36,888 nucleotides of DNA from Chloroflexota bacterium (lineage in GTDB: Bacteria > Chloroflexota > Dehalococcoidia > Lucifugimonadales > UBA2985). The notes under the pieces were generated by a model that was given only the letters and a program-made list of their open reading frames with translations, ran no database searches and was not told the DNA's origin. A program made the position numbers and the translations under genes. This document shows, piece after piece, positions 7,247-17,089 of this stretch (its first letter is position 1; each line of letters begins with the position of its first letter). The stretch spans positions 39,493-76,380 of the forward strand of contig PBBS01000016.1 in the NCBI GenBank assembly GCA_002717805.1, given 5' to 3'.

Positions 7247-9097
7247 TTGGATCGAAAGATGATTTGGTTGAGACGTATAATATCAGTACCACTGGTGATC
7301 CTGTTTATAGCATTAGCCATTCCTGCATTTTCTGTGTTCACATCAATAAACATTCTGATCGAGCCGGATTTCATTAAGCAAAATCTGATTAGTAATGGAG
7401 TGTACGAAACGGAGTTTAAACGATCACTCCGTCGTAGCGTTACTGAAACTATTGATACTTGGAAAGATCACCTTGAATATAGTACGGGACAGCCACTAGA
7501 TATCGAGATTGACAGTAAGAATTTGGCTTATGCCTTCGAACGATCAATTGCTATGGATGTGATAGAGGCAGAGACGGGAAGAGCTATAGAAGAGATTCTT
7601 AGCTATATGAGGAGGGATCAAGAAGAGTTTGATCTAGGTATAGATATGGACAGGATTATTGAATCTACACTTTTAAATCTGGTAAATATCTTGTATAAAG
7701 AAGAGATTGTGGATTTGGAGATCGTTTCTAAAGGGGTAACAAATTCTGTCATCAACTCAGATATAGACGCTGAGATCATAGCGCAATCTATTCCAAACGA
7801 GTGGCTGAATAACCAGATAATTGAGGCTATACCGGAATTTGTGCCTTACGCTGCAGGCCAATCTGAAACATTTTCTATAACAGTAAATCTTGATGGAGTG
7901 TTTGAAGAAGATTCCATAATATACATAGACGGTGTAGCCAATGATGCACTAGGTCGTTGGTATGAATATATTAGTGATTTACTGGTTGAAAGCTTTATAA
8001 ATCGATCTGTGGCGGAACCTGTGGAGATAGATCTTTTCGGCGTATTTTCTGTAGGCCTTTCCGTAGATGAGTTGAGATATATTGTTAATGAAACTGTCGC
8101 TTCCAAAAACTTTGATGACCTGATTGATAGTCAATCTCTGGATGGGTTGGCATCATATCTTATGGGTTCTAGCGATGAATTTGAGTTATCTATGGATTTT
8201 GGGGAAGTTTCTTCTGGGGCTGTAGATCCTACTTTAGATATAATTAAAGCTAAGCTATTAAATACGGCGTCACAAGGTTCAGCTATTAATTCGATACTTG
8301 AAGGTGCTATCACCGTTCTAGTAGATCAATATAGGGATCCTATAGAAGCTGTGATTTCTGATTTAATACCTCACAATCTACTGATTAGTAAACATGATTT
8401 GATTGCAGAGCTCTCCAGAACAGAAGAAGGAATGGAGATATTGCGATCGATGGAAAACTTAAGGGCTTTATTGAAAGAAGGATTTGTTTATACAGATAAA
8501 GAACTGCGATCTCAACTTGGACCTGACGGAGTAGTACGTCTTAATCAAATCAGGGATTTAATTAAGGAAGCCTCGGTTTATGATGAAAAGGATTTGATCC
8601 GTCATATGATGGAATACGGTAAACTTGATACAGGCCAAATTGAAGAACTTAGAGATATCTTGAGTAACAATGCTAGTAGGGTTCTTGTGATGCAATTGCT
8701 GAGCCTTGTATTGCTTGTGATGATTGGACTTTTGGTTGCACGTGATTATATAAATAAAATACGCGCTATTCTGCTGTTGGGATTTGTTGCGTCTCTGGTT
8801 ATGTTAGCTGTTGTTATATCTGTTGATTCTGTTTTATCTAACAGCATAATTTCATTGATAACTGATCTGGAAAATCAGATTGCACGTCGAGAGTACGAGG
8901 GGGATTGGACTGATTTATTCGTAAGTAACATTGTTACTGAGTACACAATATCTACTATTAATATCATAGATAACTTCAGGATTATTTTGGTAGATGAAAT
9001 TAAATATTTTGGTGTATCGTGTGGATTACTAACCTTCGCACTATTTGTTGCCTCTCATTTGGTTTCCACGCTCGGTAAGCAATGGAAATCAGCTTGA
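7247..9097 (+). CDS. Unrecognised large membrane protein with long extracytoplasmic domain
   Basis: I do not recognise this 616-residue protein. One hydrophobic segment lies at about residues 11-33. A long acidic, mostly helical-looking region of about 440 residues follows, containing many Asp/Glu/Ile/Leu-rich stretches. Near the C-terminus are a pair of strongly hydrophobic segments (about 486-530) and a final one (about 585-605). This suggests a large loop outside the membrane held by four membrane helices. The start used is TTG at 7247, with GAGGAA ending three bases upstream. An ATG at 7259 is the alternative. It is a single-gene unit converging on the MBL gene with a three-base gap. No catalytic motif is visible. 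Confidence 0.75.
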   Translation: MDRKMIWLRRIISVPLVILFIALAIPAFSVFTSINILIEPDFIKQNLISNGVYETEFKRSLRRSVTETIDTWKDHLEYSTGQPLDIEIDSKNLAYAFERSIAMDVIEAETGRAIEEILSYMRRDQEEFDLGIDMDRIIESTLLNLVNILYKEEIVDLEIVSKGVTNSVINSDIDAEIIAQSIPNEWLNNQIIEAIPEFVPYAAGQSETFSITVNLDGVFEEDSIIYIDGVANDALGRWYEYISDLLVESFINRSVAEPVEIDLFGVFSVGLSVDELRYIVNETVASKNFDDLIDSQSLDGLASYLMGSSDEFELSMDFGEVSSGAVDPTLDIIKAKLLNTASQGSAINSILEGAITVLVDQYRDPIEAVISDLIPHNLLISKHDLIAELSRTEEGMEILRSMENLRALLKEGFVYTDKELRSQLGPDGVVRLNQIRDLIKEASVYDEKDLIRHMMEYGKLDTGQIEELRDILSNNASRVLVMQLLSLVLLVMIGLLVARDYINKIRAILLLGFVASLVMLAVVISVDSVLSNSIISLITDLENQIARREYEGDWTDLFVSNIVTEYTISTINIIDNFRIILVDEIKYFGVSCGLLTFALFVASHLVSTLGKQWKSA

Positions 9098-9100
9098 TAT

Positions 9101-9919
9101 CTATTTAGGACCAGCACCCCAGTGGCCGGGCTTACTTGTTGTCTCACGCCATTTTCGCAAGGTACGCCAGTTTTTCAATACTATTTTCCACGTGGGAAGG
9201 TCGTAAGGTCTGTCCGTTAGGCCCCGGACTTTATTATTAACATCATCTGTTAAAGGCGGACCATGGCCAAACATAGCAACATCTGAATCTAATTCTCTCA
9301 ATCTTCTTAGTGATGTGTCTAATTCCCTTCTTCTGTTCCTATCCCACATGAGAGGCCTGCTAAGTCTATTGATGTTATTTAGTACAGAGTCGCCGAGGAA
9401 TAATACCCGTGGTCCCTCGAGTACGGGGCAGATACTCCCTGGGGTGTGACCTGGAGTATGCATTATTCTAATGCCACCAAGGCAAGGTATAACATCATCT
9501 TCCTCAACAGTTTCGTGAACCTCCGTATCGTGATACTTTATTTCTTGAGTTCTCTTATTGCCACGTCTTCCCATCAGCCAGCTGTATATCTTCGGGGGGC
9601 CTTCAGCGCCTTCGTTTCCTTTGATAAGTAGAGATTTACCTTCAGGTGTCAGTTCTGTTTCTGCCCTGTGAGATACTATCTTGGCACCAGTAAGTTCATG
9701 TAGTTCCTGAGCGCTACCGGAATGATCAAAATGAAAATGTGTGACTAAGATCCATCTCAGGTCCCTGGGATCGCGTCCAATGCTTTTTATATAGGAAGCT
9801 ATAGATTCTCCATTACCAGATATACCAGTATCTACAACTGCCATTTGTTCATCTACGATTAGAACAGCATTACTGCCATTTATATCGGTAATTCTATGTA
9901 CGCCCGGTGTTATTTCCAT
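9101..9919 (-). CDS. MBL-fold metallohydrolase
   Basis: This 272-residue metallo-beta-lactamase-fold enzyme has the zinc motif HFHFDHSG (H61, H63, D65, H66), then HTPGHTPGS, FLGDSVL (bridging aspartate) and a late FGHGPPL histidine. This is a full di-metal ligand set, so the enzyme should be active. The family includes glyoxalase-II-like thioesterases, lactonases and other hydrolases, and the sequence does not show which substrate is used. It has no signal peptide, so a cytoplasmic site is likely. The gene ends three bases from the convergent membrane-protein gene and lies 122 bases downstream of the Gfo/Idh/MocA gene on the same strand. The ribosome site is weak. Confidence 0.88.
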   Translation of the reverse strand: MEITPGVHRITDINGSNAVLIVDEQMAVVDTGISGNGESIASYIKSIGRDPRDLRWILVTHFHFDHSGSAQELHELTGAKIVSHRAETELTPEGKSLLIKGNEGAEGPPKIYSWLMGRRGNKRTQEIKYHDTEVHETVEEDDVIPCLGGIRIMHTPGHTPGSICPVLEGPRVLFLGDSVLNNINRLSRPLMWDRNRRRELDTSLRRLRELDSDVAMFGHGPPLTDDVNNKVRGLTDRPYDLPTWKIVLKNWRTLRKWRETTSKPGHWGAGPK

Positions 9920-10041: not shown

Positions 10042-11124
10042 TCAATCGTTGGGTATCCGTATTCTAGCGCCAGTTGATGATGATTCTCTTATAGCATCTA
10101 ATATTTGTTGGCACTTGTATCCGTCATAGAAATTTGGTCTAGGAGAGTATCCTCCTGATACTCCAGCAATGAATTCTTGGACTAATAGTCTAAATGGTCC
10201 CAATCTGTCATCCCGGTCGTCATAGATTGACTCGAGTCTCTTGGGAATTTCCAACTTCTTCAGGCCGTCATCTCCATTTCTAGCACCAAAGAGGATTCCA
10301 TGTGGCGGAGGATTGAACCCGTTTCCTTGATGTGGTGTTACTAAAGTTCCCCCGTTTCCATATATCTCGATGTTGCCTCCAGATCCGAATGGAGCAGCGT
10401 TCGTTCCATTCATGGTTGCCCATCCTCCATTCTTAAATGCAAGTGTGAACGTGAATGCATCGTCAGATGTCGCCATTAATGATTGTCCATTGGCAGGATC
10501 GGTGCGCTCTGGGAAATGCGTATGCACTTGGCCGCTGACGGATGAAACTTCACCAAACCAAGTTCTTAGACAGTCAATATAATGAGAGCCTAGAGCCCAG
10601 AGGAATCCGCCTCCTTGTTCTGCATGATCTCTATTGCTTATGTTTCTAGGCTTGAAGCCGTCTTTGGGTCCGTTTACCAAGTTGACCAATGCCATATGGA
10701 GATTTCCTATATATCCTTCATCAATTAATTCCTTGGTTCGCATTCTTGCTGAAGCATATCTGAATTCATGTGCTATCATGCATGTGACATCACTATTTTC
10801 TGCCTGCTGCCACATCATATATGCTTGATCTTGATTCAGGGCGAACGGCTTCTCGCATATTACATGTTTTCCAGCTTTAATAGCATCTATAGCCATATCT
10901 TTATGGAGCGAAGGAGGGCTGACTATGCTTACTGCATCCAAGTTCTCTAGGTTAAGCAAATCTCTATAGTCCGTGAAGACATTCGGAATAGAAAATCTTT
11001 CTGCAGCTTCCTGTGCTCTCTCTTTTCTGCTCGCGCAAACTGCAACAACATCCAAGCCTTCAGAGATAAAAGCAGGTATATGAACGGTGGTACCGAAACC
11101 AACTCCTATTACGCCTATTCTCAT
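10042..11124 (-). CDS. Gfo/Idh/MocA-family NAD(P)-dependent oxidoreductase
   Basis: This 360-residue protein has an N-terminal Rossmann domain (IGVIGVGFGTTVHIPAF, residues 2-18) and the family hallmark CEKPFALN around residue 90, whose lysine is the usual catalytic or cofactor-contacting residue. A C-terminal GFO_IDH_MocA-type domain follows. Members oxidise or reduce sugars, inositols and related polyols or aldehydes, and the substrate cannot be read from sequence. The gene begins 27 bases after the stop of the selenocysteine peroxiredoxin gene on the same strand, so the two may be co-transcribed. The ATG at 11124 has only a weak AGG upstream. Confidence 0.9.
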   Translation of the reverse strand: MRIGVIGVGFGTTVHIPAFISEGLDVVAVCASRKERAQEAAERFSIPNVFTDYRDLLNLENLDAVSIVSPPSLHKDMAIDAIKAGKHVICEKPFALNQDQAYMMWQQAENSDVTCMIAHEFRYASARMRTKELIDEGYIGNLHMALVNLVNGPKDGFKPRNISNRDHAEQGGGFLWALGSHYIDCLRTWFGEVSSVSGQVHTHFPERTDPANGQSLMATSDDAFTFTLAFKNGGWATMNGTNAAPFGSGGNIEIYGNGGTLVTPHQGNGFNPPPHGILFGARNGDDGLKKLEIPKRLESIYDDRDDRLGPFRLLVQEFIAGVSGGYSPRPNFYDGYKCQQILDAIRESSSTGARIRIPND

Positions 11125-11151: not shown

Positions 11152-11673
11152 TTAGCTTTCGGAGCCACCTTGGTTATGTATCTGTTCTTCAATAATTCTT
11201 TTTTCTCGACTTGTTATCAACCTAGTTGCTTCTTCAGGTGAAAATCTACCGACGGGACCTGATGCGTACATAGATCCCAGCACAGTACCCCCACGGTTAA
11301 TTATGAATTCAGAAGGTTGTATATATTCTCTGTCATCACCTTCAGCTGACCACCATGCTCCGATGGCGTTGGCATCTTCAATGGTTGCTCCATATGCCAA
11401 ATTAAATGAAAGATTTGGCGAGACAATATTTTTAGTATCATCTGCGTTGTCCACGCTTATTGCAAATACACTAACGCCTAGCGATGTGAGCTCTTCCATG
11501 TTTTGCTCCCAAGCGGCTAACTGCCACTTACAATAAGATCACCAATGCCCTCTGTAGAAAAGAATTACCGCATACCTAGTGGGCATTTCATCGGGTAGGG
11601 TTAAGGTATTGCCGTTTATAAGGTTCAGCGTTATAGAAGGAAACTTGTCTCCTTGCTGAAGTTTTTGTTGCAT
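11152..11673 (-). CDS. Peroxiredoxin-like (AhpC/TSA) selenoprotein with UxxC active site
   Basis: Reading from the ATG at 11673-11671 gives a 173-residue thioredoxin-fold protein with one in-frame TGA at 11541-11539 (codon 45). The context is FYRGHW-[TGA]-SYCKWQLA. In this AhpC/TSA subfamily the same place normally reads GHWCPYC, so the TGA replaces the first, catalytic cysteine and the resolving C48 is kept (UxxC). The frame is intact before and after it, and a 7-bp hairpin suited to a bacterial SECIS follows at the right distance. I therefore read TGA as selenocysteine. The protein would reduce peroxides or disulfides. Without recoding, gene callers would report only a 115-residue fragment starting at 11499, which lacks the active site. 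An AGGAG lies 12 bases upstream of the start. A nonsense-mutated pseudogene is the alternative, but the exact position argues against it. Confidence 0.88.
11511..11529 (-). promoter_or_regulatory. Candidate bacterial SECIS element
   Basis: On the mRNA strand AAGUGGC (11529-11523) pairs with GCCGCUU (11517-11511), seven pairs including one U-G wobble, around a five-base loop AGUUA (11522-11518). The apical loop starts 16 bases after the UGA, and its second base is G followed by U. Bacterial SECIS elements are known to lie immediately inside the coding region after UGA, with a G among the first two loop bases. The wobble pair would be a C-A mismatch on the other strand, which fits function on the minus-strand transcript. 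The fold was done by eye only. Confidence 0.72.
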
Positions 11674-11838
11674 CTTAACAATTTTCTCCTGTATCAACAT
11701 TGTAGTTAGAGTAACTAACTGTTGGAATCAATTTCAACACTATCACAGAGTATCTTATAAATTAGATTTGGTGTCTATTACTAACGCTTTCATATTGACC
11801 CCGACGTTATAGATAATTATTATCTTCTGTGGTATCCA

Positions 11839-11899: not shown

Positions 11900-13378
11900 A
11901 TGGATTCAGCTCAATATGATGTTCTTATAGTAGGCGGAGGTAATGCAGGGCTTTGTGCTGCTATGTCAGCATTGGAACTTGGCGTGAAGGTTGGGATCTT
12001 AGAGAAAGCTCCCAGAGCCCAGAGAGGTGGCAATAGCACACTTACCTCACATATGAGATTTGCTTTCGATAGTGTAGAAGACCTAGTCCCTTTAATTAAT
12101 GAACCATCTGAACAGACGATAAAAGATATGGCAGATAAATTACCTGGCAGGCCACAGGCTGACTTATGGGATGAAATAATGCGTGCTACAGAGGGGCAAA
12201 GTGATCAAGACCTGGTTCACATACACGTAAGAGAATCTTATAACACAATAAGATGGCTACGAAGTAAAGGGAACTCTTGGGTTTCAAACTCTGGCGACCC
12301 AACCGCAGGAGATTTGATATTGATGAATGGAGGCGGATTTGGCCTTCAGGACCATAATTATAACTTTGTGGAAAGCAATGGAGCTAAGGTGCACTATGAC
12401 ACATCCGCCTTCGAGTTGATTCAGGACTCAAGAGGAAGAGTTACTGGAGTAACAGCGTTAGGCCCAGACGGGATAGTAAATATTTATGGCAAAGCAGTAG
12501 TATTGGCAAGTGGTGGTTTCGAGGGCAATGCCGCTATGAGAGCAAGATATCTCGGAGCAAAATGGGATACAGTAAAAATGAGAGGCGTTCCATATAATAC
12601 AGGAGAAGGGTTAGAGATGGCACTAGACATAGGTGCTATGCCGTATGGAAGTTGGAGTAGTTGTCACGCCTCCCCACAGGATATGAATAGACCCACATAT
12701 AGCCTTCCTTCATCCCAAAGTATTGGTGGCAGAGAATGGAATAGATATGCTTATCCGTTTGGCATATTGGTGAATGTAAATGGTCAAAGGTTTGTTGACG
12801 AAGGCGAAGATATACGAGCTATGACATACGCAAAGATGGGTAGATCAATTCTGACCCAGCCACAAGGTGTCGCATTCCAGATATTCGATGCAAAGACCAG
12901 AAGGATGGGCCTTTTATCGGCATATGGGACTGCGTCTGGTGACACTAAAGGGACTTTGGAGGAATTGGCAAATAGTTTAGGAATAGACCCGATTGGTCTT
13001 ACTAATACTGTAGCGGAGTTCAACGGTGCTATTCAGCCTGGCTCGGCCAATCTGACTGCTTTTAGGACTGATGGTATATCTACATCTGGAATCACCCCAG
13101 CAAAAAGTAATTACGCCATTAGTATAGAAGAGCCACCCTTTGAAGGCTACGCAGTATGTTGCGGAATCACATTTACATTTGGGGGACTATTAGTAGAACC
13201 TCAGACTGCCCAAGTGCAGCATGTTGCTGGTAGGCCAATTCCTGGTCTCTATACAGCAGGTGAGATGCTAGGTGGATTATGGCACTGGAATTATCCTTCA
13301 GGTTCGGGAATGATGTCAGGTGCAACTTTTGGACGCATTGCTGGCAATAGCGCTGCAAGAGACGCCTTATCCATTTAG
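11900..13378 (+). CDS. FAD-dependent dehydrogenase, tricarballylate dehydrogenase (TcuA)/fumarate reductase flavoprotein-like
   Basis: A 492-residue flavoprotein. The FAD Rossmann motif VGGGNAGLCAA lies at residues 11-21, followed by EKAPRAQRGGNSTLT, the RGGN(S/T) segment typical of TcuA and related FAD_binding_2 enzymes. The C-terminal part ends with PGLYTAGEMLGGLWHWNYPSGSG, the usual FAD-binding end of this family. It would oxidise a carboxylic acid or reduce an unsaturated one. The exact substrate is unknown. It has no signal peptide. The start has AGGAGG with good spacing. An inverted repeat around its putative promoter suggests specific regulation. It points toward the nearby split dikinase and hydratase genes, possibly one catabolic module. 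Confidence 0.85.
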   Translation: MDSAQYDVLIVGGGNAGLCAAMSALELGVKVGILEKAPRAQRGGNSTLTSHMRFAFDSVEDLVPLINEPSEQTIKDMADKLPGRPQADLWDEIMRATEGQSDQDLVHIHVRESYNTIRWLRSKGNSWVSNSGDPTAGDLILMNGGGFGLQDHNYNFVESNGAKVHYDTSAFELIQDSRGRVTGVTALGPDGIVNIYGKAVVLASGGFEGNAAMRARYLGAKWDTVKMRGVPYNTGEGLEMALDIGAMPYGSWSSCHASPQDMNRPTYSLPSSQSIGGREWNRYAYPFGILVNVNGQRFVDEGEDIRAMTYAKMGRSILTQPQGVAFQIFDAKTRRMGLLSAYGTASGDTKGTLEELANSLGIDPIGLTNTVAEFNGAIQPGSANLTAFRTDGISTSGITPAKSNYAISIEEPPFEGYAVCCGITFTFGGLLVEPQTAQVQHVAGRPIPGLYTAGEMLGGLWHWNYPSGSGMMSGATFGRIAGNSAARDALSI

Positions 13379-13423: not shown

Positions 13424-14272
13424 TCAACTACTAATTGGACGGCATTGAAGCAGATAGAGCTCGTTGTCTTTGTAAGCAACTTCTAAGTCGACTGGCCACC
13501 CCATTCTGGTTTCTAACTCAATCGCTAATTTGCCTAGCTTCAATGCCTGACTTTGATCTATTGATGGTTTATTTTGCATTTCACTAGATAAATCTACTTC
13601 TTCAGTACCTTGGACATTGAAAGCAGTTAAAACAGTTTTTCTAGATATGTGCTTTGATATAATAGAAGATGAAGATTTGTCTATAATATGCGTATCAGGG
13701 TTTACGGTTCCTCCAACTAAACTTTCTCCAAGTCCGAATGTAGAGTTTATATAGATCTCATTATTGTTTTTGTTAATCGGATTAATACTGAAAACTACTG
13801 CTGAGACGTCTGATTCTATCATCTGCTGGATCAGCACAGGCATAGTTTCTTTGTTATCATCTAGCCCGAGATGTTCTCTATAGGACAAAGCATGTTTTGA
13901 GTAGGAGGATAACCAACATTGAGAGATGGCATCTCTGACTTCGTCGTCTCCTCTGATATTCAAGTAAGTATCATGTTGACCCGCAAAAGATGATCCTTGA
14001 GCATCTTCATCTAGAGCGGATGATCTGACTGCTACACTAACATTCTTGACACCAGAGACTTCACATAATTTGTGATATGACCATGCGATGTTATCCGAAT
14101 ATTGAGGTGGTACAACTATGACCCCATTTTCCATCCGAATTTCATTTATTGGAGGTATCACAAATCCTGGGGGTATCTTATAGTCATTGTACAAAATACT
14201 TATGTTTGCTGCTTTGTTTCCTACAAATAATGGATTTGTACTTGAAACATCACCAAGCCAAATTATTGACAT
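13424..14272 (-). CDS. Stand-alone ATP-grasp (PEP synthase/PPDK N-terminal-like) subunit
   Basis: This 282-residue protein corresponds to the ATP-binding domain of pyruvate phosphate dikinase or PEP synthase. It has VGNKAANI near the start, IPPGFVIPP, the nucleotide-binding VRSSALDEDAQGSSFAGQ stretch, a GLGESLVGG segment and the C-terminal LQCRPI typical of the end of this domain. No phosphohistidine or PEP-binding domain is present. Those functions appear to be partly supplied by the divergent gene starting at 14414, which ends in a swivelling His domain. Separation of ATP-grasp and His subunits is known in phenylphosphate synthase. The start is ATG at 14272; the ribosome site is a weak GCGGGATAT. 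Confidence 0.85.
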   Translation of the reverse strand: MSIIWLGDVSSTNPLFVGNKAANISILYNDYKIPPGFVIPPINEIRMENGVIVVPPQYSDNIAWSYHKLCEVSGVKNVSVAVRSSALDEDAQGSSFAGQHDTYLNIRGDDEVRDAISQCWLSSYSKHALSYREHLGLDDNKETMPVLIQQMIESDVSAVVFSINPINKNNNEIYINSTFGLGESLVGGTVNPDTHIIDKSSSSIISKHISRKTVLTAFNVQGTEEVDLSSEMQNKPSIDQSQALKLGKLAIELETRMGWPVDLEVAYKDNELYLLQCRPISS

Positions 14273-14333: not shown

Positions 14334-14413
14334 AACCTAGCATGTATAAACTCGGGTATCATGGTTGTTATACATATAAGTCTCATATACCGACCAGATG
14401 TTATGGAGATGTG

Positions 14414-15961
14414 ATGGAAGATTCTATATTTAAGTTACCCGACCCCAGATATGAGGAATACACTTGGGTTTTACAAGATGAGCATAACCCAGCCGCACAT
14501 ACACCTCTAATATCTACAGGGAAGCACACAGGCCGAGTTGTGACGGAGCCCACTGATCGTGATATACCTGAAGCGATTGTGGTTAATGGAGTAAATTATT
14601 CCAGACAGGATATTATGGGGGCTGCAGTTAGTCCATTTGGTAGCATAGTTGCTCCAGAAACAGTGCAGGATTTGCGCAAATGGAGGACAGAATGGCTCCC
14701 TCAGATGGATGATTTGGCAGATATACTGCAAGGATTTGACCCAGAAGAAGTGACACAAGGTAAGTGGGCAGAGACTCTGGATGCTCATGATGCAGAATAC
14801 AGAAGAGTGTTTGGAGGCATTCATAGAAGCGCCGTGGGCCCTTCCAGGCTAGCCGTATCTCGGTTTGTTGATAGATACATTGAGATATTTGGGAAGGGGC
14901 GTCGTATGGATGCGATATCTCTACTCCAAGGATTTCAAAATAAGTCTTTAGACAGAGTCTATGCTCTTTGGGACTTAAGTCGAATACTAAGAGAAGACCC
15001 TTCTTTGATTGAGCCATTTAGGGAAGAGAAAGAATTGCCCAAGACATCTTTCGGGCTACATTTTCAGAAATCTATGACAACTATGCTAGATAATTTTGGG
15101 CATACATCTAATAACGGACTTCAGGATTTACCTACTTGGGGGGAAGGATCCAGAATTCCTATAGAGATAATACTTTCTTACTCTAAAGAGGATGATTCCA
15201 AGAATCCTAGATATATTACAGAGACTCAGATTGAGCGAAGATTAGTGTTAGAAAAAGAACTAAGAGATACATTAAATGTGGAAAATCAGGATCTCTTAAC
15301 GTTGATGGGCATTGCCCAAGAACTCATACCAAATCTCGAGGATCATAACCTACTTTGTGATCAGAGATGCGTTTACGTATCTAGGGCTCGGTGGCTATCT
15401 ATTGGAGATTACATGTGCCAGAAAGGTAAATTGTCGTCCAGAGATCAGGTGTTTTACTATACCAGAAATGAATTAGTTACAGCACTTGAAGGAGGCGTTA
15501 TCGTCCAGGACAACGAATTAAATAACAGGCGTGAACTTCAAACAATATATAGGAATACCTATCCTCCAATTTATATGGGTGTTCCACCAGTTAATGCAGA
15601 GGACATCTCCTATATTCCAGAGGAAGGGCAAACTAGGGTTCAGGCGAAAGGAGTGCCAGCTTCTCCTGGAGTATATAAAGGCAGAGCTAGGGTGATCCAG
15701 TCTCTTGAAGAGGCTGTTTCACTTGAGGATGGGGATGTGCTTGTGGTTAGGGCTCTCACACCGCCATGGACGCCATATTTGGGCTTAATAAAAGCTGTAG
15801 TCACCAACACCGGAGGTGAATTGTCACATGGTGCAGTAGTTGCTAGAGAGTTTGGGATACCAGCAGTGGTAGGGACTGTTAATGGTACAGCAGTTATCTG
15901 GGACGGTTCAGTTATATCTGTAGATGGTACTAATGGTTTGGTGTATCTAGAACAACAGTAG
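14414..15961 (+). CDS. PEP-utilising-enzyme mobile (phosphohistidine) domain protein, partner of the ATP-grasp subunit
   Basis: This 515-residue protein ends in a PEP-utilising swivelling domain. About 90 residues from the end come KGVPASPGVYKGRARVI, then VLVVRALTPPW and TNTGGELSHGAVVAREFGIPA, whose SH histidine is the phosphoryl carrier. The first 400 or so residues resemble the substrate-side region of rifampin-phosphotransferase or phenylphosphate-synthase-type proteins and hold no motif I can name. An upstream in-frame ATG at 14342 exists, but GGAG at 14405-14408 sits five bases before the ATG at 14414, so I prefer the shorter form. With the divergent ATP-grasp gene it forms a split dikinase predicted to phosphorylate a small molecule with ATP. 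Confidence 0.82.
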   Translation: MEDSIFKLPDPRYEEYTWVLQDEHNPAAHTPLISTGKHTGRVVTEPTDRDIPEAIVVNGVNYSRQDIMGAAVSPFGSIVAPETVQDLRKWRTEWLPQMDDLADILQGFDPEEVTQGKWAETLDAHDAEYRRVFGGIHRSAVGPSRLAVSRFVDRYIEIFGKGRRMDAISLLQGFQNKSLDRVYALWDLSRILREDPSLIEPFREEKELPKTSFGLHFQKSMTTMLDNFGHTSNNGLQDLPTWGEGSRIPIEIILSYSKEDDSKNPRYITETQIERRLVLEKELRDTLNVENQDLLTLMGIAQELIPNLEDHNLLCDQRCVYVSRARWLSIGDYMCQKGKLSSRDQVFYYTRNELVTALEGGVIVQDNELNNRRELQTIYRNTYPPIYMGVPPVNAEDISYIPEEGQTRVQAKGVPASPGVYKGRARVIQSLEEAVSLEDGDVLVVRALTPPWTPYLGLIKAVVTNTGGELSHGAVVAREFGIPAVVGTVNGTAVIWDGSVISVDGTNGLVYLEQQ

Positions 15962-16840: not shown

Positions 16841-17089
16841 TTAGGTTTTATTAGCTAATGGGATCAGGCGTACAATCCATTCTTTCTCTGCAATCAATTC
16901 TACGTTTATATTCCAGCCTTCCTTCAATGCTGCATTTGATACTGTTAATATCGCTGGGAGAAAATCAGTGATCATATCTATGGATTGTCCTTTTTCGGCG
17001 CCTTTCATGGCTTCCATCGCCTTGATGAGTGGGGTCGGGCATATCTCACCGCGCATATCCAGTGTTATAGCAGATTGACTGTTGTTCAT
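16841..17089 (-). CDS. TusA/SirA/YedF-like sulfur-carrier protein
   Basis: An 82-residue protein with the family signature LDMRGEICPTPLIKAMEAM, where C17 in the CPxP motif is the persulfide (or selenide) carrying cysteine. TusA-family proteins pass sulfur to tRNA thiolation, molybdenum cofactor or sulfur-oxidation pathways. YedF-type members occur with YedE transporters and have been linked to selenium metabolism. It is the last gene of the minus-strand operon that begins with YeeE/YedE at 22690, and the second TusA copy in that operon. A good AGGAG site precedes the ATG. It follows the di-haem cytochrome gene by 31 bases. Confidence 0.9.
   Translation of the reverse strand: MNNSQSAITLDMRGEICPTPLIKAMEAMKGAEKGQSIDMITDFLPAILTVSNAALKEGWNINVELIAEKEWIVRLIPLANKT

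Follow-up and report, generated by a model that had tools for sequence, protein, structure and literature searches.

We found that the window (the whole 36,888-nt stretch of DNA analyzed here) holds a gene that appears broken and is almost certainly intact, its "stop" codon encoding a selenocysteine (Sec) in a redox active site. That this gene encodes a selenoprotein, with the UGA at codon 45 read as Sec, is a conclusion we hold with very high confidence. The protein is of a known kind of selenoprotein from ocean bacteria and is kept by dozens of related species; we found no earlier report of it for this lineage. In dozens of related genomes as well as this one, standard annotation would cut the gene to a fragment that lacks the active site and would hide a selenium demand of the lineage.

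A gene interrupted by one in-frame UGA

The 173-codon frame (11673-11152, minus strand) (Table 1) has a sole lesion, the TGA at codon 45, with 44 open codons on its 5' side and 128 on its 3' side. An earlier note on this DNA had reported such a TGA at 11541-11539, with no second stop in the frame, and a re-reading of the sequence agrees. It had also claimed that default annotation would yield a 115-aa fragment from 11499 lacking the active site; translation with table 11 alone indeed gives only the 115-aa ORF 11499-11152. In the read-through protein, the Pfam AhpC-TSA domain extends across the TGA (residues 8-131; score 65.5 bits, above the cut-off of 26) and occurs together with a UxxC motif (U45-S-Y-C48), the combination that defines Prx-like UxxC proteins (PF00578). 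An in-frame ATG upstream, at 11700, was ruled out as the start because homologues begin at the equivalent of 11673. The gene is present in a single copy in the source genome (1.32 Mb), a draft in 25 contigs that is 87% complete.

Table 1. Features of the predicted selenoprotein gene and its product, with coordinates in the window
Feature	Position	Strand	Description and basis
UxxC Prx-like selenoprotein gene	11152..11673	-	173 residues, Sec45; ATG 11673, TAA 11154-11152; read-through translation
UGA in frame at codon 45, read as selenocysteine	11539..11541	-	TGA in 45/48 aligned homologues
AGGAG, putative ribosome-binding site	11686..11690	-	12 nt before the ATG; from sequence
Bacterial SECIS hairpin	11510..11530	-	8-bp stem, 5-nt loop AGUUA (11522-11518), conserved loop G at 11521; RNA fold
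Cys48, second redox residue of UxxC	11530..11532	-	No variation across the 40 aligned sequences; counterpart of the peroxiredoxin peroxidatic Cys by alignment
Pro120 (Q119-P120), thioredoxin cis-Pro site	11314..11316	-	At least 90% conserved; aligns with the peroxiredoxin active-site Arg

Using tblastn on homologous loci, we compared codon 45 between the window gene and 47 homologues; 47 of these 48 aligned sequences come from the order and one from an alphaproteobacterial MAG (L031). The codon is TGA in 45, TGC in two (L058 and L059), and TCA (Ser) in one (the second gene copy in L060), counts that are not independent events, the homologues being related. Besides the alphaproteobacterial MAG, the TGA homologues cover 14 family labels within the order, and their frames are open before and after the TGA. 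Matches at E 1e-10 or better occur in 55 of the 147 genomes of the order, the weakest of these matches probably being other AhpC/TSA proteins. In a sample of 400 genomes from the phylum, other members carry TGC or TGT at codon 45. The Cys that the earlier note had expected at this position is thus present in two order members and elsewhere in the phylum, giving the pairing of a conserved in-frame UGA with Cys in homologues that marks a selenoprotein. A distant group of the same phylum (f74, L079-L092; ∼33% identity) has the UxxC motif as GHW-U-SHC, with TGA and the same downstream hairpin motif. A scan of genome contigs returned one distant relative only, and no relative of the gene was found among phage records.

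The downstream hairpin and the selenocysteine machinery

The RNA 3' of the UGA folds as UAAGUGGC-AGUUA-GCCGCUUG, with a loop that begins 16 nt after the UGA and a folding energy of -12.7 kcal/mol (z of -2.8; three of 200 dinucleotide shuffles were equally stable). Rfam gave no match on the whole window nor on 11440-11600, so we judged the hairpin from its fold, its homologues, and published limits. For bacterial SECIS elements (bSECIS), these are a loop of 3-9 nt, a stem of 4-16 bp, a G in loop positions 1-2, a distance of 16-37 nt from the UGA, and an MFE of -7.5 kcal/mol or lower (PMC13188914). The window hairpin satisfies all four limits (5 nt, 8 bp, a G in second place followed by U, and 16 nt) at -12.7 kcal/mol, and we take it to be a bSECIS.

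Conservation points the same way. The loop letters in the 45 TGA genes are A (45), G (45), U (43, with C in two), U (45), and R (45). When amino acids were held fixed and codons were resampled from each gene's own usage, the loop G was expected in 30.6 genes as against the 45/45 observed; coding constraint therefore fails to explain the conservation of the loop. Silent sites over the hairpin are frozen: Arg is CGG in 86% (40% expected; z 7.7), Ala is GCC in 97% (47% expected; z 7.8), Gln is CAG in 100% (z 3.8), and Leu is UUR in 43/45 (z 3.5), although, as the sequences share ancestry, these z values imply more independent events than there are. Well-conserved residues in adjacent columns mostly show ordinary codon variation, the strongest exception being Ala at -9 (z 4.1). 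Stem pairs vary among several types (e.g., G-C, C-G, U-A, G-U, and U-G at columns 14-28), and in the f74 group, as read from the sequences, a stem G-C is replaced by A-U in some members. The MFE z against synonymous resampling is modest (mean -1.0; -1.5 for the window gene), and a simple stem test fails in a few relatives, some of which refold with a 4-nt AGUU loop.

The loop G is absent from all three sequences that lack the TGA, its position being occupied by C in the in-order Cys genes and by A in the Ser copy. In a phylogenetic tree that was midpoint rooted, with the codon-45 residue set to Cys in all rows and the deeper position of distant rows unsure, the in-order Cys genes and another Cys gene of the phylum (L074) group inside the TGA clade (support 95/87), so Sec to Cys would be the simpler direction of change for the in-order genes. 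The Ser codon occurs in a tandem pair (L060:920-1924, genome G118) in which the first copy has TGA and the second has TCA; in the second copy CAG has become CAA, which puts A in place of the loop G. A tentative account, which we put forward as possible rather than probable, is that the Sec form is ancestral and nearly the sole form across the order, with one switch to Cys within it and one tandem copy that went from TGA to Ser (TCA) and lost the loop G; the Ser copy could then be a regulator or binding partner and not an enzyme. If true, the lineage would be strongly selenium-dependent for redox housekeeping. The Cys and Ser versions, without the loop G, illustrate how Sec coding is lost in nature.

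The earlier note had also expected selA, selB, selC, and selD in the same genome. SelA, SelB, SelD, and tRNA-Sec are all encoded there: selA, tRNA-Sec, and selD score over cut-off, and selB is partial at a contig end. The selA gene (C10:45248-46582) scores 516.8 bits (cut-off 267.9), and selD (C4:54550-53630, minus strand) scores 356 bits (cut-off 125) and has its own in-frame UGA in LTDLTKCAG-U-AAKFSP, fitting the UxxK listed as a Sec motif of SelD (PMC13188914). The selB frame (C2:23780-22188) is open to the contig end and supplies a C-terminal part of more than 500 residues; its 229.2 bits fall just below the cut-off of 242.25 because the start is missing there, along with the N-terminal 80 model positions. 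The tRNA-Sec gene (C10:66968-66875) scores 65.5 bits (cut-off 47), a gathering score that was also passed in five of 14 control genomes and that other long tRNAs may reach; the call rests on the full-length 65.5-bit match and on the UCA anticodon (ARAGORN). A relative that carries the Cys form (G045; 91% complete) had no selA, selB, or selD over cut-off among the matches listed. Across the order, almost every selD gene that scores over cut-off has an in-frame UGA, and one single-contig genome (G007) has two full-length UGA-containing selD genes (C1:3386799-3387722 and C1:15765-16688).

Alternative readings and the active centre

An in-frame stop is a standard sign of decay, and the gene could be read as a decaying pseudogene in which a point mutation placed a stop in a once active Cys gene, a reading to which the Ser at codon 45 of one relative's tandem copy lends some color. 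Yet the same TGA is found in 45/48 homologues at ∼40-59% protein identity with frames open on both sides, the silent codon sites just 3' of it are frozen, and the genome encodes the Sec machinery, which together make decay extremely improbable. We consider a changed genetic code, with UGA meaning Trp, Gly, or Cys organism-wide, to have next to no chance of being correct: it would account for an in-frame UGA at a conserved residue that is Cys in homologues, but UGA terminates six of the 32 window genes taken, where read-through adds short tails only, and the tRNA with the UCA anticodon is tRNA-Sec, found together with selA and a Sec-containing selD. It is also very unlikely that the UGA terminates deliberately to give a short peptide, with the internal ATG at 11499 starting a working protein from the 115-aa C-terminal part. 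An ORF with that ATG does exist; however, its product would have neither the UxxC centre nor the fold's first beta strands, conservation is among the highest in the residues that precede and surround the UGA, and the frames of the Cys homologues continue through codon 45.

If the gene encodes a selenoprotein, what would the protein do? Alignments to solved structures (5xbq, 2cx3, and 6q5v) place Sec45 on the Thr/Ser of the T/SxxC motif and Cys48 on the peroxidatic Cys, and Pro120 falls on the active-site Arg of 2cx3 and 6q5v. Peroxiredoxins have lost the N-terminal Cys of thioredoxin (TxxC) and have Arg at the cis-Pro position (PMC2757866); the canonical signature of T/SxxC plus an active-site Arg is absent here, with U45 at the Thr/Ser site and Pro120 at the Arg site, and a thioredoxin-type active centre (UxxC plus Pro) is therefore retained in a peroxiredoxin-like fold. 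An AlphaFold model built from the 40-sequence alignment (mean pLDDT 88.6) has peroxiredoxins as its nearest solved structures (Bcp4, 3hjp, with Z 19.4 and rmsd 2.5 over 155 residues) and puts residue 45 immediately before helix 46-57. The placement of the UGA at the first catalytic Cys, as originally proposed, therefore stands where the CxxC subfamily is concerned, whose first Cys lies there; the peroxidatic Cys of true peroxiredoxins corresponds to Cys48 instead.

These alignments also bear on whether the selenoprotein is a true peroxidase with Sec45 as its peroxidatic residue. The peroxiredoxin fold and the Pfam AhpC-TSA match would suit a peroxidase, and glutathione peroxidases have Sec at the N-terminal position of their motif (UxxT; PMC1088965). 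On the other hand, Sec45 aligns with Thr/Ser and not with the peroxidatic Cys, and Pro replaces the peroxiredoxin Arg. We regard a true, selenium-based peroxidase as rather unlikely yet a serious alternative, and a thiol:disulfide oxidoreductase or reductase as the most likely activity, judging from the alignments.

From the frame, the conservation of codon 45, the hairpin, the machinery, and the predicted fold, we infer Sec insertion, the chemistry, and the substrate as follows. When a ribosome reaches codon 45, SelB would bring Sec-tRNA(Sec) (anticodon UCA) to the UGA by binding the hairpin just downstream, whose loop would present the conserved G, and Sec would be inserted with no termination. 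In the 173-residue product, Sec45 would be the attacking selenol, placed at the N-terminal end of the first helix of the active site, and Cys48 its resolving thiol, with Pro120 at the cis-Pro site. The most likely substrate would be a disulfide, or a peroxide reduced via a U45-C48 selenenylsulfide, with recycling by a thioredoxin-like reductant.

Lineage, neighborhood, and known relatives

Using what we take to be the letters of the SAR202-312R probe, we found an exact match to the 16S of one member of the order and one to two mismatches in two others. The probe itself is published (PMC10030979). The source genome gave no 16S gene match, and the lineage is therefore judged from these relatives, being probably SAR202-like Chloroflexota. 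In the literature searched, which is incomplete, we found no paper on SAR202 together with a selenoprotein.

The neighboring genes (9101-9919, 10042-11124, 11900-13378, and 13424-14272) were not beside the selenoprotein gene in the other loci compared and so gave no clue to a function as an operon. Two divergent genes of the window, 13424-14272 (minus strand; PPDK_N ATP-binding domain) and 14342-15961 (plus strand; PEP-utiliser mobile domain), carry domains that usually form one enzyme. The window also holds a small TusA-family sulfurtransferase (16841-17089, minus strand), a family whose members are sometimes tied to selenium metabolism, and a 616-aa ORF with a TTG start (7247-9097, plus strand) that has no match in Pfam or NCBIfam.

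No NCBIfam model scores above its cut-off for the window protein. PrxU (TxxU; NF040737) shares its fold and superfamily, but the Sec of TxxU is at the peroxidatic position and that of the window protein is three residues earlier; the PrxU model reaches 25.2 bits, far below the 270 of its cut-off, and the peroxidatic position is Cys48, not Sec. ResA/TlpA-type thiol:disulfide oxidoreductases have a CxxC-type centre in common with it, and the window profile matches ResA structures, with the ResA model itself giving 26 bits (cut-off 170). SelL-related redox proteins (NF040769; 23.3 bits, cut-off 120) are distant Prx-like relatives with a different Sec motif, that of SelL being UxxU.

The closest known system is the family of Prx-like UxxC selenoproteins, which, as the earlier note stated, is established from marine metagenomes: 22 sequences were reported from the Sargasso Sea in 2005 (PMC1088965), the GOS survey of 2008 listed 225 sequences of "Prx-like 1" (PF00578, UxxC) (PMC2398784), and a "Prx-like thiol:disulfide oxidoreductase" (PF00578) is listed as a high-confidence prediction (PMC13188914). 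The window gene shares with these PF00578, the UxxC motif, a bSECIS just downstream, and many Cys homologues. Judged by domain, motif, and bSECIS, we found no difference of kind; the window gene comes from another lineage.
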